DNA of 64,000 nt from positions 12,478,126 through 12,542,125 of the forward strand of contig NC_133238.1 of assembly GCF_040436345.1 (NCBI RefSeq), written 5' to 3'. Position numbers and translations under genes: made by a program. Below are positions 30,458 to 50,600 of the stretch, in pieces; within the stretch, counting starts at the first letter, position 1, and each line of letters begins with the position of its first letter. The stretch comes from Pagrus major. Lineage: Eukaryota; Chordata; Actinopteri; Spariformes; Sparidae. A model generated the notes under the pieces. It was not told where the DNA came from. It did no database searches and saw only the letters and a program-made list of their open reading frames with translations.

Positions 30458-33400
30458 CTACGCCCCCGCATCCGTCTGACAGGCTGAGTGTCTGTAGGTG
30501 TACAGCTTGTTATCTGCACCTCCACTCAACATCAGCTGAAAATAGAAACAGAAGAAGGAAAGAGAGGAGATTTTTATGTATTGTTGACATTAATTTCCCA
30601 CTGGATCAGGCACCGATTGTTCTTTGCTTTGGGATTATATTTTTGGAAAACAGTCTTACCCCACTTTCTGTCCAGTCCACACAAAACACTTTGTCTTCAT
30701 GGGCTGCCAGGTCATACAGAGGAGCCTTAAAGCTGTGACACATGAAAGAAACACACGTTAACGTCATTCACATAAGCTGGTTAATATAGAGGTTTATTAC
30801 AGAAAGAGTGAAGAAGATAAGAGACAAACAGCACCAACCAAAGAGTGGGCGTAGGCTGAAGAAATAGCTCACAGCTCTATATAACTGACCCAGTATTTTA
30901 TTCTGACAAAGACAGGAAGCTTGCTCCAAACGGAGCCGTCACCGGGAGAAAGCTGTTTATTTCCAGGCGTGAGGAAGGAACAGGATGTCCCACAGCTCCA
31001 CACGCCTGCACCGGTGACCTCTCATACTTTAATATTGACCTTTTTGATGCTCAGTCTAAATTTTCTGTAAAAGTACAGAAGAACTGGGATCTAATCCTCC
31101 TGTTTTGAAACCAAATTTCTAAAGTTTGATGTACTGAGTAGGAGCTAATGGGCTTGTGCCACAGAGAGGGAAGTTGGAAAGGAACGGAAGATGGACAAAC
31201 ACATAAAAGATCCTTTAAGTCCCAATGGGTGCATGTTACCGCCTTCTGAAATACACACTCTAAACTAAGTGCTGTACAGACCTTCTGGTGTCCCACAGCT
31301 TGACCAGGTTGTCGAGGGAACCCGAGACCAGCTGGTGCTCATGTGACGGCGCCCACTTCACAGCGGTGACCCAGCCAGTGTGGGAGGTCAGAGACAGCAG
31401 CACCAGCGACCCGTCTGGAGAGGAGAGGAGAGGAGGCGTTTAGAGCCGTGAAGAGGAAGAGTGAGGCGAAGTGCCCACAGGGGGCGGAAATAAAACGCTG
31501 CTGCTAAAACAGCTAGGATTGTATTGAGAGACAGCGGTGGTGTTTAGAGATCACTGGTACCTTTGGTGCGAGGGTCCCACAGTCTGATGTGTCTGTCGGT
31601 GCTGCCTGAGGCCAGCCGTCGACACAGAGGTGAGTAGGAAATACAGTTAAACACTTTGCTGCCCGTCTGTGGAGAGGACAAAAAACATCAGGTTATTGTA
31701 GAAAATACCAAATACAGGTGTCCAGGTGTGCAGTTGCAAACTCCACCTGTAGCCTGAGAGCCAAAAGCCAAGGCACAGTGTTTTTCTCACCAGTGTAGTC
31801 TTCATCCCGCCTGTCTCGACATCCCACATGCGGATGGTGTGGTCCCACGATGCACTGCAAACCTCCTCGCTGTCGCACCACAGGACGGACGACACTGCCT
31901 CGTTGTGTCCGGATAACGTCATCAGGGGAGTCTGTGTCAGCGTGAGAACATGTGAACCATCACATTAATCAAACATGTGAACTTGAGCATCGGTTTCTAT
32001 ATTATCAAACCTTATAGACGACTCACCCTGGTCAGGCCCAGCTGTTGAGTCTTCTGTTTCTTCCTCGGTCTGTCGGCAGGTTCTTCAACCTCGTCGGCCT
32101 CGTCTGTGGGCACTGACAGCACAGGAAAAAGGTTGTAGCTTGGCAGAGATTTGCTTTATATTCGGTAACACTTCAATCAATCTTTCTTGCAACCTACCTG
32201 CTGACCAGATCTTCAACATTTTGTCCCAGGAGCCGCTGCAGAACTGTGAGGGAGCAACACAAACACTTTGAATACTCAATCCTGATCATTCCTACTTCTT
32301 CTCATCTGCTTTTCTTCCCTCTTTACCTTCGAGCCGGTGGGGTCTGTGGCGACGGTGTCAACGCTCCCCGTGTGCCCCCGACAGCAGTGTCTCGCTTTCA
32401 CCTTGTTCCTCTCAGAGTTCCACTCCCACAGCAGGACGGTTTGGTCCAGAGAGGCCGTCAGAAGCAGAGAGGTCAGACCGTCTGCATGCAAAAACACCAA
32501 ACAGACATTTTAAGAAGGGTTTGTCATAATTTAGCCAGCAGAGTGGATGTCTGGCATCGCCGTCCTGCTCACCTCTTTTGACCCAGGCTACATCTTTCAC
32601 CACATCTGTGTGTCCGGCCACCGTCATCACCGCCTTGCCCTCCACGGACCAGATCCTGGCCGTCTTGTCGTATGACCCTGTTAGGATCCTGGAAAAATGT
32701 GGAGATTATAGAAGATTTCAAGCACATATATATTCACACCACAGACAAGTAGTAATGCAGTCTTAAACAACAGTCCTGTAAAAAATCCTCCTCTCCCTCT
32801 TTAGAAAATGTATCTATTTGTTCTCATGTTCGTTTGCAGTTACTTCACCTTGTTCTACTTTAATTATGTAAGAAATCTAAGTAAAATATTATCCACAAAA
32901 ACTAAATTTATGTTGTGTGATACCAGTGTAATGCTGATGAAAAGCCTGGTATTTCTAGTCTGGGTTCTGGTGCATGGTCTTCTTACCATTCAGCATCTGC
33001 ATCTACGGAGCTGATCCAGTCATCGTGCATCATACACTCCTCTGGCTCTGGTGCTGTGATCCGCTCTACGTACTCTATCTCCACCACGTCTTCCTGAAAC
33101 AGACACACAAACACTGATGCATGAATATCAAACTATGTGTTCCCAGCCAGTCCCTATTCCCGGAAATATAAAAGGAATAGCATGGAAAACGTCTTTCCTT
33201 CGTAGTTCACAAACTGAGTCACTGGAAGCACCCAGTGCCGTTAGTGCAACAGAAGCAAAACCTATCTAGTCAGGTTTTAGCGGTGAGGCTGGTCTTACCG
33301 TCGATATGCCTTCTGTGTCCATGTGAGAGGACAGAGACGTTCGCAGGAACTGACCCCTGACCAGGAAGTCGAACTCCACTTTGGTGTGAGATGCTGTAGA

Positions 33401-34186
33401 AACAAAACAACAACATATGAATTCAAGACATTACAAGTATTTTTGATCAAGCACTGGGATTTTGTGAACGATCTCATATAATTTATGTAAATATACACAC
33501 CCATATAAAACCTGAGATCATTTCTTTCACAATATGCTACACAAAGACAATTAGTCATAGTTTTATACAACCCTGCTGCAAGTGGACACTCCGCTGGGCA
33601 ACTGTGTGCCAGAAAAAGTCAAACACACTTGTAAATGTTTAATTAAAGTGTGTATCTTTACCATTTTTAGCCTCCAGTAGCTTGTTGATGACATTGCTGA
33701 GGTCCTGCACTTCAGCTCCAGCAGGGATGGAGAATGGGACATCATCTACAACATACCTACAAACAGAAAGCTATTAGTTACAACCATCAAATTCAGACAA
33801 ACATATCTAACACTAAATGGATTAATTTGTCTTATAGGTTAATGTATATGGCTGTAAATATGGAGGAGAGAGTGAAATACGATACAGCACCTAGATTTCT
33901 CATATCTTATGGTTGTTAGCATTAGCTTAGCTAGCTAAAACATTAGCCACGAACTGTTTAAGGCTAACAGTAATACGTGGCTAAGCAAACATTAATAGTG
34001 CACATTCACAGGTTTAAAGCCGAGTAGTGTTTCACAATAATGTCGCAGTGTTTACTGTAAGTTACAGCTAGTTAGCCAGCTCGCTAGCCATCTTGTCTTT
34101 TTTTTTTTTTTTTAGTTTTTTAATGTAAAAGAAATAAGCACTCACCGTTTGTTCTCCGTGAAGAACCTCGCTTGTAACTGCGACAT
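30458..34186 (-). CDS. wdr12: WD repeat protein 12, ribosome biogenesis (YTM1 homologue)
   Basis: Nucleolar subunit of the PeBoW complex (PES1-BOP1-WDR12), needed for 27S/32S pre-rRNA processing and 60S assembly. Thirteen coding exons, high to low: 34186-34146, 33756-33662, 33393-33299, 33093-32987, 32688-32573, 32481-32327, 32243-32198, 32112-32027, 31931-31791, 31666-31561, 31414-31282, 30732-30660, 30535-30458. Total 1,272 nt, 423 aa, the same length as human WDR12. The N-terminus [20 protein letters not shown] then PFSIPAG begins the NLE (ubiquitin-like) domain that contacts the Midasin MIDAS domain. WD motifs follow: [59 protein letters not shown] basic, acidic linker ([12 protein letters not shown]) is encoded by the 86-nt exon. 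All splice phases agree. Confidence 0.97.
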
Positions 34187-35220
34187 GTTCAGTTATATGT
34201 TTCTCTTAAAGAACACGAGCTATAAGAATATAAGATATGGGTCAATAGTTAATCTGTTCCTTCATAACACATCTGACTCTCATGCAGGCAGTCGTGCCAT
34301 GTGGTGCGGACGTAAGGCACTTCAGCAGAGCACAGATGCAGACGAGCGATGATGCGGATCTGTGCTCCTCTATTAATGCCTGGCCGGAGTAACTCGCCGT
34401 GCCTGTAGCTGTTATTTGCCAAACAGCGACTACTGTTGACACAAGTGGCATGTACAGGATAATGGCACACTGCGTTTCTATTCATTCACTGTAAACAGAC
34501 TCCAGTAATGACAGCTCCTCAAAGCATAATCCAAAGTTAGCTAACATTAGCCACAATACGCTTATGATGCTTACAAGTTCATCTCAAGAGGAAGACAGAA
34601 TTATTGATTCTTTCCAAAGATACATAATCTTATTCTGAGTGCAGTGAAGCATCTGTAACCAACACTGATTCATCTTTGAACTGAATTAAACCCAGACAGT
34701 GAAATAAAAACTACATTTGGTAACAAATACTGGATAGAAACTAAAAAATTTCCATCAGTGATGTCACTCAGTCGCCAAGCATTTTGGGTAATGTAGGCAC
34801 AAGGTGTTGAAGAGGAAGTAGAACGTGTGAAATATATTGGCAATATCTTGGGTTCAACTCTTATTGATTTTGATCATGTTTTCAAACTGTCCATAATGAG
34901 TCAAACAGTGTTTTAGCATGCATTGCTAAACCAGTGTATTGCTTAAAAAAAATGTTGCCTACACTACCCACAATGCAACTAAGCCACTAAATGACATCAC
35001 TGGAGGAAATTTGTCAGATTATATGCAGCTTTCTCTGGAGTCACAAAAGACTTTATACTTCTTTTTTCACATTAGTACTCCAGGACCTGTAAACACTTTA
35101 AAGTGTTAAAGTGGTGCAGTTATCCTTTAATTTAATAACATTGAATAATCGAATAAATGTACTCTACATTTTTATACTGACCAAGCAAATAAAACCAAAA
35201 CACATCATTACAGCAAAAAA
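34187..35220. other. wdr12 5' flank and spacer to nop58
   Basis: About 1 kb without a coding exon. It should hold the wdr12 promoter (not strongly CpG-rich). 34740-35130 resembles a stretch at 40650-40990 (shared words such as 'tttctctggag' and 'cctgtaaacac') and is probably a dispersed repeat. Confidence 0.45.
34740..35130. repeat. dispersed repeat copy, also seen in the first nufip1 intron
   Basis: Shares the order 'gatgtcact...', 'ttctctggag.cacaaaaga', 'agtactcc', 'cctgtaaacac' with 40650-40990, and part of it with 2165-2235. Family not named. Confidence 0.4.
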
Positions 35221-35614
35221 TTTATTTCACCAGGGCGGATGTTCAGTCTAGGACAATAATAAGAGAACTGGGGAATCTCAACTCGTTCCTCTGTGCTGAA
35301 TTGGATACAGATGTGTTCACAAATAAAACTGATGACGGTAGATTACAAACTTAGTACACATCATTTAAAAAATAAAATAAAAATTTACATTGTTCACTCA
35401 TCTTAAGTATGGAAATACATGGTGAGATTTCAAACCACAGCTTACTCAAAGTTATAAAAGTGGATCCCACCGTTTTGTTCTTTAACATGAACTCTTTCTG
35501 ATGTCCTGAAACAGGCACTCGATACAGTATTGCCCTGATTAGATATAAATGTATGACACAAAACTAAAATGACATAAAAAACTAGAACAGAACATATATA
35601 CACTCTCCACTCTC
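35221..35614 (-). other. nop58 3' UTR with poly(A) signal
   Basis: Sequence after the nop58 stop on the minus strand. The first well-placed minus-strand AATAAA is at 35221-35226 (tttatt on +), about 390 nt past the stop. Confidence 0.6.
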
Positions 35615-38600
35615 TCATTCATCATCTTCTTCCTCCTTGGCTTTCTTTTTCTTCTTCTTTTTCTTCTTTTCCGTTGACTGCAGAAAGAACATAAGTCAAG
35701 TTAGCGCAACAAATTTTCAACACTGGAAAACAAATCTCATGAATCGTCTCAAGACTCAGGATCAAGTTTATAAAACATAATCCGACCTCTGTTACAGCTA
35801 CTTCTTCCTCCTCCTCTTTTGGTTCCTCGGCTTCAGCCTCTGCCTTCTTATCCTTCTTTTTCTTCTTCTTTTTCTTTGGGGTCTCCTCTTCTACTGCTTC
35901 TTCTTCTTCTACAACAAAACATGCACACAAAAAAACCCTTGAGCATCATGAACACTGTTGTTGACACCACAAGATTCGTCTCATTCCCACTACACCCACC
36001 TTCTGGTACTGCTTCTTTTTTGGGCTTCTTGGCTTTCACTACTGGTGTTTCTGGCTCCTCAGCAGCCTCCTCCTCCTCCTCCTCCATCTCCTCAAACTTC
36101 CTCTTCTTTGAGGTGGAGGGAATTGTAGAGTCGCCGGATGGATCGTACATTCTCACTTCACTGTGGAGAAAAAAAGTAGGCATTTAACACATATCCTATT
36201 TACATGTGGAATTATTTCATCTTTGGAAAAGAGCAGGTTATGACTCTTCACCTCTTGTGCTGGTATTTGTCTGCCTTTGCCATTGCTTTGCCTGTTCCAC
36301 TGATTCTGCGGATCTGAGAATGAAAAATACAAAACACGATCAGATGACCAGCAGAGAGAGCTCATAGTTACTACATATGACATTCATGATTAATATCCTT
36401 CAGTCGAAGTGGTACTTACTCCTCTCTCCTCCAGCTGGCGCAACCTTGCCTCCAACTTGGCGCGGTTCTCTGCTCCCATTTCTGCATTTGTGTCCTCTCC
36501 CAGGGCGTCATAGCGAATAGCCAGCGCTGCTTTAGCAGCCAGCATTCTTGAGATCTGCACAGAAAAATAAATAGCCCATGTTTATCTTCTACCAATCAGA
36601 CTGATGATCATTAACCGGTCCAGTTACAGCTCCTTCTAAACATACCTTGCCCTTATTCTTGGCAGTGGTCTGACCCACTAGGGAGGCGTGGTAGATGAGG
36701 CCGTACTTGGGTGTGTCTTTGCGGGTCTTCAGGGCTCTAAACAGAGCCTTCTCTGCGCCAAGGATCTGCACTGTGGAGGCTGGATGCTTTGCCAGATTCA
36801 GAAGGGAACCTTAAACACAACAAATACATGTAAATACAATGCTCTCACCAGTGCCTGCCAAATGTTCTCTTTAAGCAAGCTCAGATGAGGTAGTGACTTA
36901 AAAGCATCAGTCAATTTCAGGAAAGTGACATAATGTCGTCATCATCACCGCTTGGCTGGTTTTCACACAGTCCCCTTTTCAGACACGTACCTGCATGTGA
37001 GATGAGACGGGCGCCGACCAGCTCGCCCACCATGACTGTCAGGTTGGGGGCGATCGCCATCATTCGGTTCTTCAGGTAGTCGTACAGCTGAGTGCGGTAA
37101 TCTGTAATCTCAATCACCTGCAGCAAAAAGAGAAGATGGTTCGATTCCCTTCCTGTATGTTTATATTCAAAGCAGGAGTCTTGAAATGTGACAGTTCAGA
37201 TGAGGTAGTGACTGAAAACCCACATGATTTGTTTCAGGAAAAAGACAAAAGTCGTCATCATCACCACTGTCACTCAAGCTCTCAGATTCTTAAGGACGAA
37301 TGAAACATACCTGATCACACAGGTGCCTGATGTTGCCGATGTCCTGCTCCGACACCTCTGTTCCCATGGAGATCTCAGCAGCCAGTTTAACCTCAGCCTC
37401 GATTTCCTCAGGGAGGAGGTCTGACAGATCGGAGCCGGCCACGTTTGTGCGATCACCTGAAGACCCACAGAGACATTTAGCCACTTAGGAATACTGTCAC
37501 TTTAATGCATGTAAAGTTAAAGCTGCAACTATGGAACATTATGTGAACTAGTTTTTAAAAAGGGACACAAATGCAGATTATTTTTACCAATTTTGCGGAC
37601 AGATTTGCAGTAGGCCAAGTTGTCAGTGACGATTTTTCCCAGCTCGGGAAAGTGCCAGCCGTACCACTCCCTGCATCGCATAATGTAGTTGTTAAGCTCC
37701 TTATCCAGGTCATCTAACAGAGCTGAAGAGACAATGAAAAGTCAGTCAGTCATTGCTTAATAATGAAAATAAGTTGCAGCCCTACCCATCCATAAATAGT
37801 GTAGTGCTTTTGTTACATTACGCACACAAAAAACAACTTACATATGGCTTGCACGATCATAGTGTCGACTTTGTCCGGACTGAACTTCAGCTTGTAACGG
37901 GATAAACTGGAGAACACAGAAAATAGGGTTTATTAGTGAGTTACATCACACTCCAAACTATTTTTGAGTGTAGTGTGCCTTAAGAGAGACTGCTGCCTCA
38001 GTGGTAGTGACGAATGCTGAGGAAAATCTACAGGAAGTTTCAGACAGCAAGTGTAATCATAGGCAGCAGTCACTTTTAACAAAACACTAGCTGTGCTGCA
38101 TTTACCTGTGAGCCAACCCCAGAGACATGGCACTGATCTCTCTTGGAGGAAGTCCAGTGATCAGGGCCTCCATCTGGCTCCTGATGCATCTCATCAGTTC
38201 AGCCACGGCCGGGCTGTGGACACAGCTCAGGTCCAGCTTTTCCTGAAAAACACCAAAACTGGTTAGAGACCCAACTCTGAGCTAGTGAATACCTGAGTGA
38301 GTGTAACAGATTGTTGGGTCGCTTACTTTAATAACACCACCGAGCTTCACATCACTGATGGCCAGCTGCTCATGGGCCTCCTTGGCAACAACCTTCTTCA
38401 GGACTTTCTTCAAGCTCTTGCCAATTTTTCCCTCGACAAGGGCAGTGGCAGCTGAAAAATAGAAAACAGTCAAACTAATGTACTTGAGGGGAACATCTAA
38501 AACAGAGGACTAACTACCTCTCTTCACCATCTAAACTAGCCGCTAACATGACATGAAGTGGTCTCAGCGGTAGTGACGTATACTGTGAAATGCCTCATGT

Positions 38601-39495
38601 TTTAATCAGACACAGGAATGCATCACAGACCACAGATCTCAGGTGTACAAGAGCGCACAAACACAGGTGTCATTACCTGCTAAGGCCTCTGTTGTGTCCT
38701 GGAACTTCTCAAAGTGCTTCAGCTTCACACTAAAGAGGGAAAGCAAAAAAACATTTAGGTGACACTTCATCAACTTTATCAATCAATGACAACCGTCTAG
38801 TTGCGTCTGTAACACAAGCTGCTCTGGGCAGTTGAATGTTGCATCAACACTTACACTTTGTTCGCCTTTTCAGGAGTTTCAAACTCCTTATACAAGCTGT
38901 CGACTTTTTGCAGTTTGGATTCATCGAGGACCTGAAATATAAAAAGACACTTAAAGTTAATTGTCATCTTTTAAAATAGATTTTAATCAGCAATGACGGG
39001 CTGCACGTGTAAATGAAACACTTAAATGTAAATTACCTTTAAAATAGGTGGTTAACGCCAAAATCTTTTAATGCTGATCATTATATGGCATCGTCGTTTG
39101 CTTCATTTACAATGTGCACGTTAATGTCGCTTCATGAGAAGTAGCGACATGCACTGAAGTCAGCCTCAACATGCACACGTGGTTACAAGGCCTTTCAGCT
39201 GCTAGCTAACTTAGTGTTAGCTTGTGCATCAGCAATGACACTCGTGCACAGGTACAAACCTTACACGTACACATTCACATAAATGAGGATAAATTAAAAG
39301 ATTACATTTATAGTTGTCTTCACTGTCTGCTAAAACCGAACCAGCGTGCGCTGTTAGTTACTAGCTGCGTAGCTAACCTAAGCTAACTCGGGTAATAACG
39401 CGTATTTGCCGCTATTTCTTTAAATGACAGGAAATAAAAGCCGTACGTACCTTGAATATGGCATATCCAGCGGCGGTCTCAAATAACACCAGCAT
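35615..39495 (-). CDS. nop58: NOP58, core protein of box C/D snoRNPs; snoRNA host gene
   Basis: Nucleolar scaffold which, with NOP56, fibrillarin and SNU13, forms the rRNA 2'-O-methylation snoRNP. Fifteen exons, high to low: 39495-39451, 38931-38855, 38729-38677, 38451-38327, 38242-38106, 37906-37842, 37722-37588, 37456-37311, 37117-36991, 36809-36646, 36554-36420, 36313-36252, 36160-36000, 35908-35787, 35677-35615. Total 1,617 nt, 538 aa (human 529). NOP5N domain at the N-terminus ([16 protein letters not shown]). NOSIC region [20 protein letters not shown]. Nop domain with [39 protein letters not shown] and [13 protein letters not shown]. The C-terminus is a low-complexity KKE/KKD tail (exons 13-15), typical of NOP58 and NOP56. 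Introns 3, 5, 8 and 9 each contain a box C/D snoRNA. The gene is divergent from nufip1. Confidence 0.98.
36876..36954 (-). ncRNA. snord11: box C/D snoRNA, SNORD11-like (18S Gm509 guide), copy 1
   Basis: In the nop58 intron between exons 9 and 10. Read on the minus strand: C box GUGAUGA (36942-36948), D box CUGA (36881-36884), 5-bp terminal stem CAAGC/GCUUG (36950-36954 with 36876-36880). The element above the D box is GUCACUACCUC, complementary to 18S rRNA GAGGUAGUGAC. By the D+5 rule the target is the third base of that 18S string, human G509. Human NOP58 hosts SNORD11 and SNORD11B. Confidence 0.88.
37188..37273 (-). ncRNA. snord11b: box C/D snoRNA, SNORD11-like (18S Gm509 guide), copy 2
   Basis: In the nop58 intron between exons 8 and 9. 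C box GUGAUGA (37258-37264), D box CUGA (37196-37199), perfect 8-bp terminal stem (37188-37195 with 37266-37273). The guide above the D box is the same as in the copy in the next intron (GUCACUACCUC, two bases then CUGA), so the target is the same 18S residue. An internal CUGA before a 'gaaacaaatc' stretch could be D'. Which copy is orthologous to human SNORD11 or SNORD11B is not decided. Confidence 0.9.
37988..38071 (-). ncRNA. snord70: box C/D snoRNA, SNORD70-like (18S Am512 guide), copy 1
   Basis: In the nop58 intron between exons 5 and 6. The guide GUCACUACC lies one base above D box CUGA (37998-38001). This shifts the D+5 target three bases 3' compared with the SNORD11 type, to human A512. 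The terminal stem is a perfect 10 bp (37988-37997 with 38062-38071). The C box is imperfect: AUGAUUA (38054-38060) rather than RUGAUGA. Confidence 0.85.
38558..38633 (-). ncRNA. snord70b: box C/D snoRNA, SNORD70-like (18S Am512 guide), copy 2
   Basis: In the nop58 intron between exons 3 and 4. C box GUGAUGC (38620-38626), D box CUGA (38564-38567), 6-bp terminal stem (38558-38563 with 38628-38633), internal CUGA usable as D'. The guide GUCACUACC one base above the D box gives the same register, and so the same predicted 18S target, as the copy in the intron before exon 6. Confidence 0.87.
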
Positions 39496-40356
39496 GTTGG
39501 CCGCCGGTCAGTCACTTTATAGAGTTTGTACGCTCTCTGGTTGAGAGCCTTCAGGTTTTTCTGGTAGTCACCACGCTGCTGCTCCGACTGTGGCTGAAGC
39601 ACACGCGGGGAGAGCGAGCACCAGGAAACTGCTGGGTTGCCAGTTCCGCTCAGTCGATATCACCCCCTACCGGACGTGATAGTGTGATTTTATTGATATT
39701 TTAGCAAATTTTAAACACATTACAAATATGATTTGGTTTTAAGAATTGTTGATATCATCTCTGTGTTATTTCCACTATAAGATGTTTTTTTTAACAGTGC
39801 ATAATTAGGTTGAATTTCTCAAAAACAACAAAAAAAGATGAGTTGGCGTATGAAAAAAACGCTCGACATAGCTTTCTGGCGCTTTATGCCTACATAAAGA
39901 TGTTATCTGGTGTTAATATATTTCTAAGCTTATCTAACATCCTGCAACTTTGTCCACATTTCTTTAAAAGTGGAACACAAATTATACGCTGTTTTCCGCT
40001 CCCCAACCTGGCAACCCAAGAGGATTGTCACCTCAAATCTCGCGAGAAGTTGTCACTAAAATGCCGGTTTAAAGAAAATACATTAAATAAAATCGTAGAT
40101 AAGACAAAGTAACCGTTTAACTTAATATATAAAAATGTACACAAAACATTGTTATTATAAAATGCAAGCTATAGTTAGGAACATGTATTTTATCTCTGCT
40201 CAAATGTTCCGTGTACTTCCTGTTCTCGCGGAAGTGACGAACCTACGTACAAACTAGAGCAAAACATGTACATGTGAGAGCTGCGTGGTGGTGAGAAACA
40301 CATTTACTTCAAATACACTTCCCTGTCGACGTGCAGAAAGACCTCGGACGTGCAGC
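39496..40356. promoter_or_regulatory. divergent (bidirectional) promoter of nop58 and nufip1
   Basis: The two start codons, 39495 (-) and 40357 (+), are 861 bp apart with no other gene between. The stretch holds a perfect TCTCGCGAGA palindrome (40038-40047). Two inverted ETS-like sites, ACTTCCTG (40215-40222) and CGGAAGTG (40229-40236), sit close above nufip1. No TATA box at a useful place was seen on the nufip1 side. Shared control is inferred from layout. Confidence 0.6.
40038..40047. promoter_or_regulatory. TCTCGCGAGA palindrome (housekeeping-promoter motif)
   Basis: Exact 10-bp palindrome containing two CG dinucleotides in otherwise AT-rich DNA. This motif is known from CpG-island and bidirectional promoters of housekeeping genes and is bound by BANP in vertebrates (Kaiso/ZBTB33 has also been proposed). 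It lies 319 bp from the nufip1 start codon and 543 bp from that of nop58. Confidence 0.65.
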
Positions 40357-43300
40357 ATGAATGAACCGGGACACTATCCTCCGCCGGACTTCGGCGGTCT
40401 TGCTCCAAACACGATCCAGTCCTTCCAGTACCAGCAGCAGCCCCGCTCCAGCAACTTCCACCCCAGCATGTGGAGCTGGTCCGAGACGCCGTCGGAGCCC
40501 AGCTGGGACCACAGCGGCCAGGGGGGGTGGCATCACGGGGCAGCGGCAGGGTTTGGTTTCCAGTCAGGCCGTGGAAACTATGGACCTAAACGTCCGTACG
40601 GTAAGCTACCTATAAAGTACTTTTAATGGTATTAAAAAACACCCCAAACAATAGTCCCTACTATGGGTCAGGGTCCAAAGGCACTAGATCCTACATTTCC
40701 CATAATGCCACCTAAAGCATATAAGGTTAGACCCCGCTGGAAGATGCCCATGTCTTTCAAACTCCACACCTTTTAGTTAGTAACTCAGGGCTTCCTGTTT
40801 AAAATTGGCTGTCTACAAGCCTGAGCTGAAATAACCCAAATGACATCACTATGACATCATCAGGGTTACTTTCTCAGGTTTCTCTGGAGCCACAGAGGAT
40901 ATGCATCACTGTGTTTACAGGCTGAGTAGTACTCCTCATGACGAGTTAAGTGGACTTGGTCTGTAGAATTGGTGAAATGCCCCTTTAAGTGTTATACAGA
41001 AAACATTGTGAATTTATTGAGATTTAAATATCGATGTGCGTGTGTTGTCATTCCTCTAACTTCAAGTCTTGTCTTCAGGTCAAAACTTTGGTCATGAGTG
41101 GCATCAAGGTGGACATCGGGGCGGAAGACAGAATCATGGACCCCCCAACAACCACGGGAAGAAGGTTGGATCATTACCACTTAGATCATGATCATGACTT
41201 TAATGGTGTTTTTTATGTGGCAGCAGAATACACGCGTTACATGATGTGAACTGATGTGTTTCTATCTCACAGCAGAAAAATAAGAAGGAACCAGAGTTTT
41301 CCCATTTTTGCGACACCTGTGACCGGGGCTTCAAAAACCAGGAGAAGTACGATGAACACATCTCTCAACATGTCAAGGTAATTTAATCTGATTTGACACT
41401 GTATATTTCGCTTTATTTCATGTCATTTGTGGAAATCTGTGTTCACATTTTACTGACCGCCTCCTTCACATCTCTTTCGTAGTGTTCTGTGCCCGACTGC
41501 AGCTTCATGGCTCATGAAAAAATAGTCAGCATCCACTGGAAAAATGTAGGTCAAACAACTTGCTGTGTACAATGAACTTAGATTCCCGTTGTTTATTTTT
41601 GTTAACGTCAGTGTTTCTTTCCTCCTGATTGCAGAACCATGCACCAGGAGCTAAAAGAATCAAGCTGGACACACCAGACGAGATCGCAAAATGGAGAGAG
41701 GAGAGGCGCAAGTCAGTAAACATTTTTTAGTAGATACCCAAAATGAAAGCATGAACCTAAACGTGAGCATAATATGCAACCTTTAATTTGTTTTTGTAGA
41801 AACTTTCCAACTCTTCAGAATATCGAAAAGAAGAGAAAGGTGATGGAGGTGCGGGAGGAGACAGGAGCTGTTCTGGAGACAGCACAGTTTGGGTAAATCG
41901 TGTTTTCTCTTTTATTACATCCAAACACAAAAGTATATTTGCACTTTCGCTATGACATGAGGCCTGAGCTAGAGTCTAAATCCAAACTTTAATATTTTAT
42001 TCACAGACGAATGAGAGGCAGAGGAAGAGGACGGGGTCGAGGTCGCGGCTGGGGCAACAGAGGGTTTCATGGGCGACATCCTCAAGGCCCCCACCCATCG
42101 GACAGCAGTGCTACAGAGACACCCCCACCCCTAACCCAACGCTCCAGGGACGTGGATCCACTGGGAGCGCTGGCCAGCAGTGACCATGGTGAGTGGCTCG
42201 TCTGACATGGGCAGGACTCGGTATTCAAACAAGACTGTAAACAATCACCTGACGGTGTTTGTCATGTGCTTCCAGATTCTGACAGAGAGGACCCAGCTGC
42301 TGAGTCCAGAACCGGTGGCCTGGTTGTGGCTCCTAAACAGATGAGCTCGGCTCTGGGCTCGCTGGTGGCCAACTACGGCTCCATGAGTGAGAGTGAAAGT
42401 GATGAACCAGAGGGTGAGTTCATATCATGTTTGGCAAAAATATACACAAGATACATACAGACGCATATATTAACAAACAAAATATTATGACAGAGCAAAA
42501 AAACTGACATTTTCCATCATTTCCATCCAGTATTCTCATTATCCTCTTTTCTGTTTGTTTCAGCCATACCCATCCAGAGAGCCAAAGACCTTGTGCAAGA
42601 AAACAAGGCCCTACTGAACTCAGTGCCACCAAACTCCCAGGACAGAGGACCTTCTTGTGCCCCGAAATCCTCTCCTCAGGGTACAGAAGCTCACAAAGTC
42701 CCCCAGCCTGACTCTGTGGTTCACACACCTCACAACAGGAGAGGAAGAGGGGCAAGGGGAGGCAGGGGAGGAAGGGGTGGTAGAGGAGGACACCAAGATA
42801 GATTGCAGGCACGTCGTCCCACTCTGCTTGAGATGGTAAGGAGAAAACTGAGATTATGCAAGCGTGATTTACAAGAATGTTCTCAGCCCTCATGTGCTCC
42901 TCTGATTTCTTTCACTCTGTTTAGTTACTGGCCCCAGATATCCGCCATGAGAGGAACGTCCTCCTGCAGTGTGTGCGCTACGTTGTCCGAAGCAACTTCT
43001 TTGGCCTGGAGAGCAAAGCTCAGAACCAGGAGGGGATGAAGGATAAACCCAAATCAGCCACCCCAACTGGAGAGCATGAAGAAAGGCAGGAAAAACAATC
43101 AGAGAAAGACAGTGCTGTGCCTCAAGTTGGCAATCAGGAGGATTTAGAAACGAGCAAAGCTGTTGTCGTGGACCAAAACTGTCTGGAGCAGGGTTTGCAG
43201 AGTGATCAAGTATGCTCAGAAGCATCCGCAGCAGCAAGGGCTGAGCAGGCTGCAGGGGATTTCGTTCAAAATGCTGAACAGACGGCTGCCAAAGACTGTC

Positions 43301-43392
43301 ACAGCCTGGATTTAACATCCACAGATAAAATCACATGTGTATCGAATATATATGATGATGAAATATGGGAAAGCCCTGGTGCTGTTATGTAA
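40357..43392 (+). CDS. nufip1: NUFIP1, zinc-finger box C/D snoRNP assembly factor
   Basis: Vertebrate counterpart of yeast Rsa1. It bridges SNU13, NOP58 and the R2TP chaperone during box C/D snoRNP assembly, and has also been reported as a ribophagy receptor. Ten exons: 40357-40600, 41079-41164, 41273-41377, 41483-41545, 41635-41711, 41800-41892, 42007-42188, 42276-42413, 42564-42835, 42925-43392; 1,728 nt, 575 aa. The C2H2 finger reads [21 protein letters not shown] (exon 3), followed by [19 protein letters not shown]. The conserved NUFIP region follows: [37 protein letters not shown]. The N-terminus [15 protein letters not shown] matches the NUFIP1 start, preferred over an in-frame ATG at 40285. 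Two RG-rich tracts (exons 7 and 9) stand out. The C-terminus keeps [20 protein letters not shown] then QCVRY. The acidic tail after exon 10's start is not recognised. Confidence 0.95.
40601..41078 (+). other. nufip1 first intron, contains a dispersed repeat
   Basis: Bases 40650-40990 resemble 34740-35130. Nothing coding. Confidence 0.5.
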
Positions 43393-44603: not shown

Positions 44604-44664
<61 letters not shown>

Positions 44665-47600
44665 AAAAGTTATGGAATGTAACAAAGTACATTAAAGTAC
44701 ACTTTTGAGGTACTTGTACTTTACTTGAGTATTTCCTTTTTTTTGCTACTTAGCTAATACTTCCACTCCAAGGACATTATAATTAACATTTCGGAAGATA
44801 ATTTTGTACTTTTACTTCACTGCATTTATTTAATTTTAGTTACTAAATAACTAACACAACTACTTGTATAGGTTTATTTATTTCAACATAAACATTTCTT
44901 TTAATAGATCTGCATACCTACCTACACATCACAAAATAGCTGTGAGGTGATGTAACTAAGTACATTTAAGTACACTTTTGAGGTACTTGTACTTTACTTG
45001 AGTATTTCCTTTTTTTTGCTACTTAGCTAATACTTCCACTCCAAGGACATTATAATTAACATTTCGGAAGATAATTTTGTACTTTTACTTCACTGCATTT
45101 ATTTAATTTTAGTTACTAAATAACTAACACAACTACTTGTATAGGTTTATTTATTTCAACATAAACATTTCTTTTAATAGATCTGCATACCTACCTACAC
45201 ATCACAAAATAGCTGTGAGGTGATGTAACTAAGTACATTTAAGTACACTTTTGAGGTACTTGTACTTTACTTGAGTATTTCCTTTTTTTTGCTACTTAGC
45301 TAATACTTCCACTCCAAGGACATTATAATTAACATTTCGGAAGATAATTTTGTACTTTTACTTCACTGCATTTATTTAATTTTAGTTACTAAATAACTAA
45401 CACAACTACTTGTATAGGTTTATTTATTTCAACATAAACATTTCTTTTAATAGATCTGCATACCTACCTACACATCACAAAATAGCTGTGAGGTGATGTA
45501 ACTAAGTACATTTAAGTACACTTTTGAGGTACTTGTACTTTACTTGAATATTTCCATTTCCGGCTACTTTATACTTTCAGTCCACCACATTTTTTAGGCA
45601 AATATTGTACTTTTTCTCCACTACATTTATTTGGTAATTTTAGTTACTAGTTACATTGCAAGTTGCCTGCTGAATCAGATCCAAAGCCTAGTATACAGTA
45701 TATATATGTAGCCTTTGATATACTTTTCCTTGTAGTTTTGATACTTGTGTACATTTATTCCCAATAAATTACTTTGATACTTAAGTAAATTTTATATCAG
45801 ATGTTACTTAAATGCTTTTCTTATGGGTGACTTCCACTTTTATCAAAGAAATACTTTAACACAGTATCTTTGCTTTTACTCTAGTATGACTTTTGGGTAC
45901 TTTTTACAACACATCCATTAACTCACTCTGCCTTATCTAGCTTTTGTATAGTAAGATGCATATGTCCCTCTCTTAAACTGTCTTTGTCCTAAATGTTTAC
46001 TACTTGAATCAAAAGGTGCCAACAGAGTGGTTCTTTCTGAACATTTGATTGATCCCTTTTTTTCCTCCTCCTTCTTTCTTTCCCCTTTTCCTGCAGTTAT
46101 TCAAGTTCAAACCCCTTACCTCAGCTGAGGTAGTGGCTCCTGGTCTGTCTGTAAGCGGCTTGCTGGAGTTCACTCCAGAGGAAGACCAAGAGATCAGCGA
46201 CTGCCTCCTAATTTATGTAGATGATGTGGAGACCATTGAAATCCCATTGCTGGGGTAAGCAGGCTAGACATATATGTTAACATCTGACACATATTAAAGT
46301 TATTTAGGACCAAAAACATACCAATATCCATGCACACAACTCTCCTCTAGGTTTCCCAGAGCTTGCTCCCTGCTAATGGACTCAGTATTAGACTTTGGCT
46401 GTGTTGCTGCCTTCAGTCAGATTATCAGCAAACATCACCATATAACCAATCAAGGATCAGCACCAGGTAAATCAAGTGTGTCTGGAGATACTTTATCTAA
46501 GTTGCTCACATGTGTATGACATTCATTTTCCAAAACACAGACTCCAGGACCCATCAAATTAAATTTATTACGTTGCTGCTGCTGCTGTTGACTTAAAGCC
46601 TCACAATGTGATTCCCTCTTTATTTTTTAACTTTTTTTTAAATTATATTTTCTGAAATGAAGCAGGTTTTGGTGTGAATACACATATGTGTTTGTGTGTG
46701 TCTGTTTGTGTGTGTGCACTGAAGGTTTGTTCCAGGTGCAGTACAATGGAGACCCATCAGTCAGACTTTCACCTTGCAGTGGAGTCATAGCAGCTGGCGC
46801 CACTCAGTGGCTGAAAGTGGAACTGCGCACAGATGTGCCCAGGCTGATTGATGAGAAGGCTCTGTAAGAAAATCTTCAGATATCTGTGACCACAGATAGC
46901 ATGTATTAAATGGATAGGACACTAAATGCTAAGTTTCACATTTTAAGAAATTAGCTAATGATATTTTGTCATTTAAGGAGTGAATCATTGTGTCATTTTA
47001 CACTAAAACCCACCTGAACCTCCCTCTCCTTTTGTCGCAGGGTGAAACTGCAGAATTGCTCTGCTGTAGTTCTCAGTATAAGGGCTGAGGTTGTGGACCA
47101 GCACCTTGAAGTCTTTGACTTGCAGGTAAATCAGTGCTTCAAGTGGATTTATGGCTTTCCCCCTCTAAATTGTGTTCATGTTAAGATGCTGTGCCATTTC
47201 ACAGGGGGATCCATTGTCCTGTCTGTGGTTTGGACCTGTATACTTTGGTACATCCTGCGTGGAGAATGTTGTTCTGAGAAACAATGCACCCCAAGCATGT
47301 GACTGGGTCTGTCTGCTCCAGGATACTGCTGCTGGGACTGAGGTGGTGAGTGACACGCTCGGGGACACTATGCATAGCCAGAAGCTAGTCATACTGAACT
47401 GAAAATGAAACAACAATGCTTTGAATGTGTTGGCTGTGTAGGGAACAGATCTCCAGAAGACAACAGACGCCGCCCTGCTGGAGAGAATGAAGAGGTGCAG
47501 CCAGAACACTCAAGACCTCTCTCAGGTCTTGGTGTGTGATCCCAAACAGGGTCGGCTGGGACCGTATGACAAAACCATTGTCGCAGTACACTTCAGCCCC

Positions 47601-50600
47601 ATGTGTAAGAGGTAAATTGTCTGTGAATGTGCCTGAAAACAAAAAAAATATTTTTTTTATGAGTACCCAATGGCCTTAACATTCCTATCAAAATAATTGC
47701 CACTTAGAAATGTAAATATTGTCTAAAATTGTTGTGCGGTAATATATTCTATAGAAATACCATAAAGTTATATATGATAGTATGGGAAAAGAAGTGCTAC
47801 TCCCCGTCGGGGAATCGAACCCCGGTCTCCCGCGTGACAGGCGGGGATACTCACCACTATACTAACGAGGAGATGATCGAGGCAGTGCAGGTGTGGCCGG
47901 AACTTAATCTTACCTGTACAGAATAACACTGGCTGTCTTTCAGTACACCTGAAGGGAAGAAACGTGATCACTCATCCACCCGGCAAGACTACTGCCTGTT
48001 CCTGCTGTTTGAATCGCTTGGAAGCAGATACGGCTTCACCCATCATAATGGTACTAACAAAACACGCACACTCATGTCACATCACATAGTACAATACAAG
48101 CGCTCAGAGGAACAAGCCAGCAGTTTAGTTTGTAGAACTCTACGAGCAGATTATTCCTTGATATTTGGTTGAAACTGTCTTCTCTCTGTCTCATAGGTAA
48201 CAGCAGTGTGGAGCTGGCAGTGACAGGCTCAGGGCTGCCCGTTTCTCTTGTGCCTAGTCCCTCTGAAAGATTCGATTTCCTCACCTGTGTGACAGGCCAA
48301 TGTGTGGACCGACTGTGTGTCCTGAAGAACCTCTGCCCTCAGCTTCCCGTCAACTTCCGCTTCCCCAAGTTAGCACATTTCACCGCCAAGCCCTCAATTG
48401 GCACAATCTCCCCCGGGCAATGCCAGGTAATGCTGGTGTTTGATTTAGTTACTTGTTTATAAATCCAAGCAGAGCAGTGAATGTGGGAACTGTTTTTCTC
48501 TGTTGCCTTCCCCAGGATGTAGTTTTGTCTTTCACTGCGAGGCAGCAAGGGAGCTTCCAGGTGCATCAGAAGATTGAAGTCTTAGGTCATGTTCTTCAGA
48601 AAGATGGCAACACCGCTAAAGATGTTTCTGCACTTCAGCTGTGCAGCATTCACACCATCACACTACATCTGTCTGCTGTCTGCCACAGTGAGACCAAACA
48701 CACCAACAATGTGTCTGTCGCTCAATACTTTGTCTTCCCCTCCCTGTCTGTGGCTCTTAACTGAACTGCTTTCTGCTGAAGCCAAAGCTTTCAAAACAAC
48801 TTCTTTTATTTCTTTTGTTTTTAAACAAAAAAACAAAAAAATTTAATATCACCAGACTCGTCCTTGAATTAGATGATCTTGATACACGTACCTTGGCTGC
48901 TTTACAGGCATCAATCCAGCTGCTGCCTTCAACACGGATAAAACACGACTCCACGTACATCGCGGGGAGAGGAGTCCAAACACAGAGGGGGAGGAGTTCC
49001 TGGCCTTTCCCAGTGACCACGCCACAAGCACCAGACCTGCCTCTGCACACAGACAGTACAGGTAGAGGTCAAAGAAACACACTCTTTAACAAGCTTAGTG
49101 CAGATTGACAGCTAATTTGTCAGCTGAAATGTGTTTGTAACAAGACAAAAAAAACAACAAATCAGATTTTCCTTAACAGTCTGAAATAGGCATATTTCAT
49201 TTCTATGTAGTTTTTTTAACAACATGTGTTTCAATCTTCACTCAAAATGTTTTGATTTTCGTCATTTTGTTGTTACGGAAGCATTTCTAGCTTTATTGCA
49301 TTCAGGACCATCTTCACTGGTGTGCACCGCTACCACTATCTGGACACAGGCTATGCTTTCACTGAGGAAGAGGAGCACCAGAGACAGCAGCATCTACAGA
49401 TTTATGCAGACTTCATCAAACAGCTCAGACAAACACGCCTGCAGAAGATCAAGGAGAAGTAGGCTTTCTTATATCTTCCTATATCAAGCTTTTTTTGTCT
49501 TGCAGATGTACAGTAATAGTGCAGTTTTACCTTTTTGTTGCTAGACAGCAGGAAAAATTGGAGGAGGACGATGTGGATATTGGGATTGTTCCTTCTCAAG
49601 GGCTTGTTCCCCCTAAACTCCGCATCAGCGACCTGGAGAGCTGTGAGATCTCAGAGACCAACAACAGCTGTGCTTCCACAGCAGCTAAACGCAGCAAAGA
49701 CATGACATCCAGCATCCAGCAGGGAAACAGTCAGGTCAGATCAAAGAGGATCCAAAGAAAACATCTCGTCAATTTAAATGGTAACAGATCTGTTAACATT
49801 TGCAGAACTCAGGAAAGTTTCTGTTTTTTTCTCTTGCATTCTCTCCAGGTGTCAGAGCTAATAAATGCCGTTCCATCCACCAGCCACGAGGTGGCAGACT
49901 GCAACAGGACTCTGACAGCTCAGGAGCTCTGCCAAGTTGACATAGGTTAGAGATTCATTTCAGAAGTGCTAGACTCACTGAGCTTCAGTATAAACTGAAA
50001 TACAGCAAAACAGGAATTAAAACAAGAGGTTTTTATGTGTTGTTTTTTTTTTCTGTATACTAGTATATTAATATACTCTGTATACTTAGAAGGAAAATAA
50101 TCACCCACAAATATGATTGCTGAGAATAATCAATCATTAAAATTATTTACAGGTTATAACAAGTGCAGAAGAATTGTTTCATGTTGAACAGCCAGGTAAA
50201 AATCTAACTCTTTCCTCATCAGGCCCAGCGTTACTGGACTTTGGCGAGGTGTGTGTGCAGTCAGTGTGTGTCCAGAAGCTGCAGCTGATCAATCACCTAT
50301 CAGTGTTTGTCTGGGTGCAGCTGGAGGTGGACTCCCCTGAGCTGCAGGGCTCCTCACCCCTCTCCCACGTCCTTCCACCCCACTCCCACAACACCCTGAA
50401 CCTGATGTTTCAAAGCAGCAAGCTGGGTCCTTTCTATAGGTCGGTGGGGCTTTAATTACACGAAAATCAAATATTGGAGTTCAGCAGCAATACAAACACA
50501 ATTCTTTTCTCCAGACCTGTATCCTACACAGTGAACCAGCAACACCCTGGTCAGATACGGGTCCAGGCACAGGTCGTCCCCTTGGCTCTGGAGCTGTCAG

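Follow-up and report, generated by a model that had tools for sequence, protein, structure and literature searches.

The head-to-head nop58-nufip1 gene pair of Pagrus major and the CpG-undepleted region between its start codons

The nop58, nufip1 and wdr12 genes

A 64-kb stretch of the Pagrus major genome (C24:12478126-12542125), hereafter the window, was analyzed within an assembly of 785,883,843 bases in 25 contigs. It contains no N, and all positions below are counted from its first base unless a contig is given. Within it lie nop58 and nufip1, two divergently oriented genes for small nucleolar ribonucleoprotein (snoRNP) biogenesis, with wdr12 next to nop58. The original prediction had described the three genes as lying side by side. 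This was borne out, and the genes were shown to be intact, by exon models, built with GT-AG borders and checked translations, and by structure and Pfam matches. The locus ends that it gave, 30458 and 43392, were correct, and the identities of the three genes are certain.

Specifically, nop58 occupies 35615..39495 on the minus strand (ATG at 39495) and has 15 coding exons encoding an intact protein of 538 amino acids (aa), which matched the human NOP58 structure 7mq8 across residues 1-536 (E=4.4e-252). On the plus strand, nufip1 extends over 40357..43392 (ATG at 40357), with 10 coding exons and an intact product of 575 aa. The NUFIP1 domain was recognized in it (Pfam PF10453, E=3.4e-20), and its C-terminus matched the human NUFIP1 peptide 5l85 over 29 residues (E=4.8e-8); the donor site of exon 2, GTTGGA, is not strong.

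The third gene, wdr12, whose product takes part in 60S assembly, is located at 30458..34186 on the minus strand, with 13 coding exons and an intact product of 423 aa. An NLE domain was found in the first 203 residues, the part that was scanned, and the protein matched the human WDR12 structure 8fky across residues 1-423 (E=4.1e-233). Its exon model begins at codon 2, and the ATG was placed at 34186. The gene stands in tandem with nop58, 1.4 kb beyond the stop codon of nop58, and has a short CpG-undepleted stretch of its own (34146-34428); it is a tandem neighbour, outside any promoter that nop58 and nufip1 might share. The three-gene neighbourhood is a single coincidence chosen after the fact and is weak evidence of anything beyond chance. 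In the spacer between wdr12 and nop58 (34700-35120), short pieces of 19-20 bp resemble pieces of nufip1 intron 1 (40601-41078) at 89-90% identity (best E 5.6e-4), and these are perhaps remnants of one dispersed repeat.

The whole-genome family searches compare one exon at a time and may overlook genes, so that a statement of one locus refers to one locus found. The NUFIP1 family gave two matches, one of them below the cut-off, and both were exons of the nufip1 gene in the window. The Nop-domain search identified the nop58 locus, one locus on C6 and one on C17, with four matches each, and the latter two were taken as nop56 and prpf31. A search with NOP5NT returned a single locus, on C6, without recovering the nop58 gene under study. 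Among 14 control genomes, none matched PF08156, PF10453, PF12572 or PF15388, one (E. coli) matched PF02270 below the cut-off, and four, all archaea, matched PF01798. That nop58 and nufip1 appear to have one locus each is a new observation.

The introns of nop58 had been predicted to carry four box C/D small nucleolar RNA (snoRNA) genes. Four are indeed present, all on the minus strand; three pass the Rfam gathering cut-off, and the fourth falls below it. The latter is a SNORD70-like RNA at 38552..38636 in intron 3, 100 nt before the 3' splice site, which reached 40.4 bits (E=0.0029) in a permissive Rfam search, short of the cut-off of 50. The other three are SNORD70 at 37986..38073 (intron 5; 79 nt before the 3' splice site) and two members of the SNORD11B family at 37189..37272 (intron 8; 71 nt) and 36874..36956 (intron 9; 64 nt). 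A CUGA box D is found in all four. An exact UGAUGA box C occurs in the intron 8 and intron 9 copies and in neither SNORD70-type copy; the Rfam SNORD70 consensus at this box, AUGAUGu, also lacks an exact UGAUGA.

With G-U pairs allowed, the guides preceding box D could form duplexes of 10, 12, 11 and 11 bp, one for each of the four RNAs, with GGGGAGGUAGUGACG, which we take to be a conserved 18S segment. According to the fifth-nucleotide rule, the SNORD11-type pair points to a G and the SNORD70-type pair to an A three nucleotides further on, presumably equivalent to G509 and A512 of human 18S rRNA. Overlapping 18S sites are reported for SNORD11 and SNORD70 (PMC5612246), and Snord70 and Snord11 are already visible at Nop58 in a read-coverage case study whose available text leaves the species unstated (PMC4682413). 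As a host of these RNAs, nop58 is not special. The host gene and the Rfam families are the same as in mammalian NOP58; Pagrus major may differ in its two copies per type, and its intron 3 copy has diverged below the Rfam cut-off. NOP56 with SNORD86 is likewise a C/D snoRNP protein gene with intronic C/D snoRNAs and is reported to be under autoregulatory feedback, and nop58 resembles it in this gene layout (PMC11028025).

The region between the two start codons

The start codons of nop58 and nufip1 are separated by 861 bp (39496..40356), and the head-to-head arrangement was found exactly as predicted. No gene was recognized within this gap. Because the start codons are 861 bp apart, the transcription start sites should lie closer than that to each other, barring a non-coding first exon elsewhere. 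The GC content of the gap is 40%.

The gap belongs to a CpG-undepleted stretch of 1604 bp (38997..40600), which takes in the greater part of nop58 intron 1 as well as the two start regions and nufip1 exon 1, and ends at the first intron of nufip1. Its CpG observed/expected (o/e) ratio is 0.97, compared with a window median of 0.42, 0.41 in the body of nop58 (35678-38854) and 0.20 in nufip1 intron 1. It contains 74 CpG, against about 32 under background depletion (Poisson P 1.9e-10, for a stretch that had itself been chosen by CpG score). Among 19 such stretches in the window it is the longest and ranks third by score. Moreover, six intervals on the 200-bp scale from 39600 to 40299 gave o/e values of 0.92-1.08, indicating no depletion between the two start regions. 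The ratio of 0.97 across 38997-40600 may be the footprint of non-methylation. Promoters of cold-blooded vertebrates are reported to sit within non-methylated islands that frequently escape simple CpG-island rules (PMC3583005), and such an island could therefore look like a GC-poor, CpG-undepleted stretch of this sort.

The only perfect 10-mer of its kind in the 64 kb, the palindrome TCTCGCGAGA is located at 40038..40047 and corresponds to the CGCG (Banp) element as described in PMC6192621 and PMC9363121. The expected number of copies is 0.01, and it was present in 1 of 100 shuffles. No further copy was found in the additional DNA inspected, which comprised 110 kb from C4, 30 kb from C9 and 100 kb flanking the window on C24 (a sum in which the first 4 kb of one piece overlap the window). 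In reporters, a single CGCG copy is reported to drive both directions, and ribosomal-protein and housekeeping genes are enriched for the motif (PMC6192621); in zebrafish banp mutants it is the top-enriched motif in the chromatin that closes (PMC9363121). The likeness to CGCG/Banp promoters, known here from sequence, consists of a perfect TCTCGCGAGA flanked by divergent genes and lying where CpG is not depleted. The inner part of the gap (39640-40010, 371 bp) matched only itself in the 786-Mb genome, in a search that skips very common words. The CpG-undepleted stretch, the apparently unique TCTCGCGAGA and the apparent lack of another genomic match for the inner gap are new.

Additional short motifs lie nearer to the two genes. 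On the plus strand, TCTCGCGG (40224-40231) overlaps GCGGAAGT (40228-40235), which we label ETS-like as an assumption of ours. Two further motifs occur once per side, each time in the sense orientation of the gene on that side: CTGGCAACCCA at 39633..39643 (minus, nop58 sense) with a perfect inverted partner at 40008..40018 (plus, nufip1 sense), and CGTACAAACT at 39523..39532 (minus, nop58 sense) with its inverted partner at 40246..40255 (plus, nufip1 sense). Dinucleotide shuffles of the gap halves did as well for both motifs in 31 of 2000 cases, in a test devised post hoc, and we treat this figure as a hint. An origin of the gap by inverted duplication of one promoter was considered and rejected, the similarity being limited to the two exact motifs, with the same shuffle result, and a further 11-of-12 match.

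Partners of nufip1 and readings of the pair

The genes that we presume to accompany NUFIP1 in the human 13q14 block, GPALPP1, GTF2F2 and TPT1, are elsewhere in Pagrus major. A gpalpp1 gene (PF12572) was found on C4 at 17.81 Mb. TFIIF-beta (gtf2f2) has two loci, on C4 at 17.807 Mb and on C9 at 23.020 Mb, and tpt1 (TCTP, E=3.3e-16) is beside the C9 copy. No nufip1 was found beside gtf2f2 on C4 or C9, and the family search matched C24 alone. On C4, gpalpp1 stands head to head with ercc3 (XPB, identified at E=2e-66), with 828 bp between the start codons (C4:17815262-17816091). We take KIAA1704 to be an older name of GPALPP1. PMC3024869 lists NUFIP1-KIAA1704 among head-to-head pairs (Table 4); NUFIP1 is thus head to head with another gene there as well, but its partner is KIAA1704 rather than nop58. 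Because gpalpp1 faces ercc3 on C4 and nufip1 faces nop58, both members of the published pair appear to have other partners here, which is also new.

The original prediction had held that the pairing is not ancestral in all vertebrates, from the position of NUFIP1 on another human chromosome, a position that we continue to assume. The nop58-nufip1 arrangement does differ from the published NUFIP1-KIAA1704 partnership (PMC3024869). It may be the fish rather than the mammalian lineage that changed. The titles and abstract beginnings of the literature searched gave no linkage of nop58, nufip1 and their neighbours in fish. Neither gene is named in the main text of PMC11676430 or PMC12672016, and the supplementary list for medaka may hold the pair.

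The C4 block around gpalpp1 and ercc3 seems to be a mixture of human 2q and 13q genes; the gene names there were assigned partly by eye, and the human positions are our assumption. Genes in the fetched DNA were sought by codon-usage score and by eye, and database checks were made for the named genes. A common ancestry of the nop58-nufip1 and gpalpp1-ercc3 gaps was rejected, as BLASTN similarity was at chance level (best E 0.087) and the C4 gap lacks TCTCGCGAGA.

In medaka, 1737 head-to-head pairs account for 13% of genes, with RNA processing and ribosome biogenesis among the enriched functions (PMC11676430); a pairing of two ribosome-biogenesis genes in this orientation is therefore of an expected kind. 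The Pagrus major pair shares with vertebrate head-to-head pairs the divergent genes, a short gap and functions in housekeeping and ribosome biogenesis, and the medaka fragments are similarly GC-poor, averaging 42% GC against 40% here (PMC11676430). It differs from the class in the length of its gap and in that both products act in the same particle. Their direct interaction is the unusual feature: NUFIP1 is reported to tether 15.5K to NOP56, NOP58 and fibrillarin (PMC9406135). The arrangement is real and tidy, and of a common kind.

We consider it probable that a rearrangement made nop58 and nufip1 into an ordinary head-to-head pair of housekeeping genes with a non-methylated promoter region in common. 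Both start regions would be enclosed by this single CpG-undepleted region, which a CGCG/Banp-type element, presumably bound by its factor, and separate core sites at each end would probably keep open over its whole length. Transcription would start outward in both directions from this open stretch, and NOP58, the four intron-borne box C/D snoRNAs and the 15.5K-tethering factor NUFIP1 would tend toward production in the same cells. The pairing itself may have arisen with the separation of nufip1 from the gpalpp1/gtf2f2/tpt1 block.

Several observations weigh against a shared promoter. The middle of the gap (39680-40200) is AT-rich, with a GC content of 0.31 and 11 CpG, includes two stretches free of CpG (172 and 107 bp) and shows a weak CpG excess (P 0.018); because of this middle, two adjoining separate promoters or islands fit nearly as well. 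Bidirectional fragments in medaka are mostly <400 bp from start site to start site (PMC11676430), which makes the 861 bp, counted between start codons, long for the class. In humans, 93% of CGCG elements are reported to lie in promoters annotated as one-directional (PMC6192621), so the motif is no proof of bidirectionality. In zebrafish, it is reported 20-70 nt upstream of start sites (PMC9363121), and the distances from TCTCGCGAGA here, measured to the two start codons rather than to start sites, are 310 and 543 bp. Finally, TCTCGCGAGA was not found in the gpalpp1-ercc3 gap.

These points lend some credit to a view that we regard as possible though clearly less probable, namely that a rearrangement set nufip1 beside nop58 by chance and that each gene has an independent core promoter without shared control, housekeeping co-expression arising anyway. 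The AT-rich centre with CpG-free gaps of up to 172 bp, the separate GC-richer ends near each ATG and the length of the gap all agree with it. The gpalpp1-ercc3 pair, which is head to head as well, has no evident functional link, suggesting that such pairings arise without functional matching. The lack of CpG depletion between the start regions (o/e 0.92-1.08) speaks against independent promoters, as do the motifs common to both gap halves and the position of the CGCG element between the start regions.

Selection may instead have spread the pairing as an operon-like snoRNP module, kept across ray-finned fish and balancing NOP58 with its assembly factor, a possibility that we think very unlikely. 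The functional link between NUFIP1 and NOP58 is direct (PMC9406135), and the two same-sense motifs common to both promoters were equalled by 31 of the 2000 shuffles; the motif test was post hoc, the comparison is limited to one fish, and the partner of NUFIP1 in PMC3024869 is a different gene. A balanced supply of NOP58 and NUFIP1 could be helpful. Somewhat less doubtful, and still unlikely, is a partner swap in which NUFIP1-GPALPP1 was broken inside a shared promoter in the fish lineage and the halves were each closed up again, head to head with a different gene, at near-equal spacing (861 and 828 bp), one product being a selected Banp-responsive snoRNP unit of core protein, guide RNAs and assembly factor.

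Finally, the perfect 11-nt inverted arms formed by CTGGCAACCCA, 364 nt apart, would suit a mobile element that had inserted and moved a promoter between genes. This origin is highly improbable: the search of the genome gave no second match for 39640-40010, which disfavours a transposon, an inverted match of >=11 nt appeared in 145 of 2000 shuffles, and no matching target-site duplication was seen by eye.

As it stands, nop58-nufip1 is a tidy housekeeping gene pair of an ordinary sort. If both genes share one switch, the locus would be a natural example of the joint supply of a snoRNP protein, its RNAs and its chaperone. With other partners found for nufip1 and gpalpp1, one could then also ask whether a new partner is tolerated by a bidirectional promoter or is of benefit to it.

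Flanking genes and minor features

From left to right, the window contains bmpr2, fam117b, ica1l, wdr12, nop58, nufip1 and a cfap47-like gene; wdr12 and nop58 point leftward, and nufip1 and the cfap47-like gene rightward. A bmpr2 kinase fragment was found in the left flank of the window by its match to the human BMPR2 structure 3g2f (E=6.3e-33), with no Pfam family, and a large putative last bmpr2 exon at 20-1390, also without a Pfam family, was named by eye. In the left part of the window, fam117b was identified by Pfam PF15388. The gene between fam117b and wdr12 encodes an Arfaptin domain and was named ica1l by eye. Human 2q33 presumably holds NOP58, BMPR2, FAM117B, ICA1L and WDR12, in an order that differs in the place of NOP58.

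The FAM117 family gave 28 matches at five loci, on C24, C23, C20, C17 and C3, all on the plus strand. Spread over five chromosomes, these matches gave no answer as a pointer to a sister chromosome of the nop58 block; the five loci exceed the two FAM117 genes that we assume for humans.

To the right of nufip1, the rightward gene encodes HYDIN/CFA65-like and ASH domains, and the name CFAP47 is our assumption. Its first intron contains a tandem array (44677-45559) of 3.2 copies of a 273-bp unit, 99% alike, adjoined by an ATCT microsatellite at 44604-44664. A tRNA-Asp (GTC) gene is located at 47799-47872 on the minus strand, inside an intron of the same gene.

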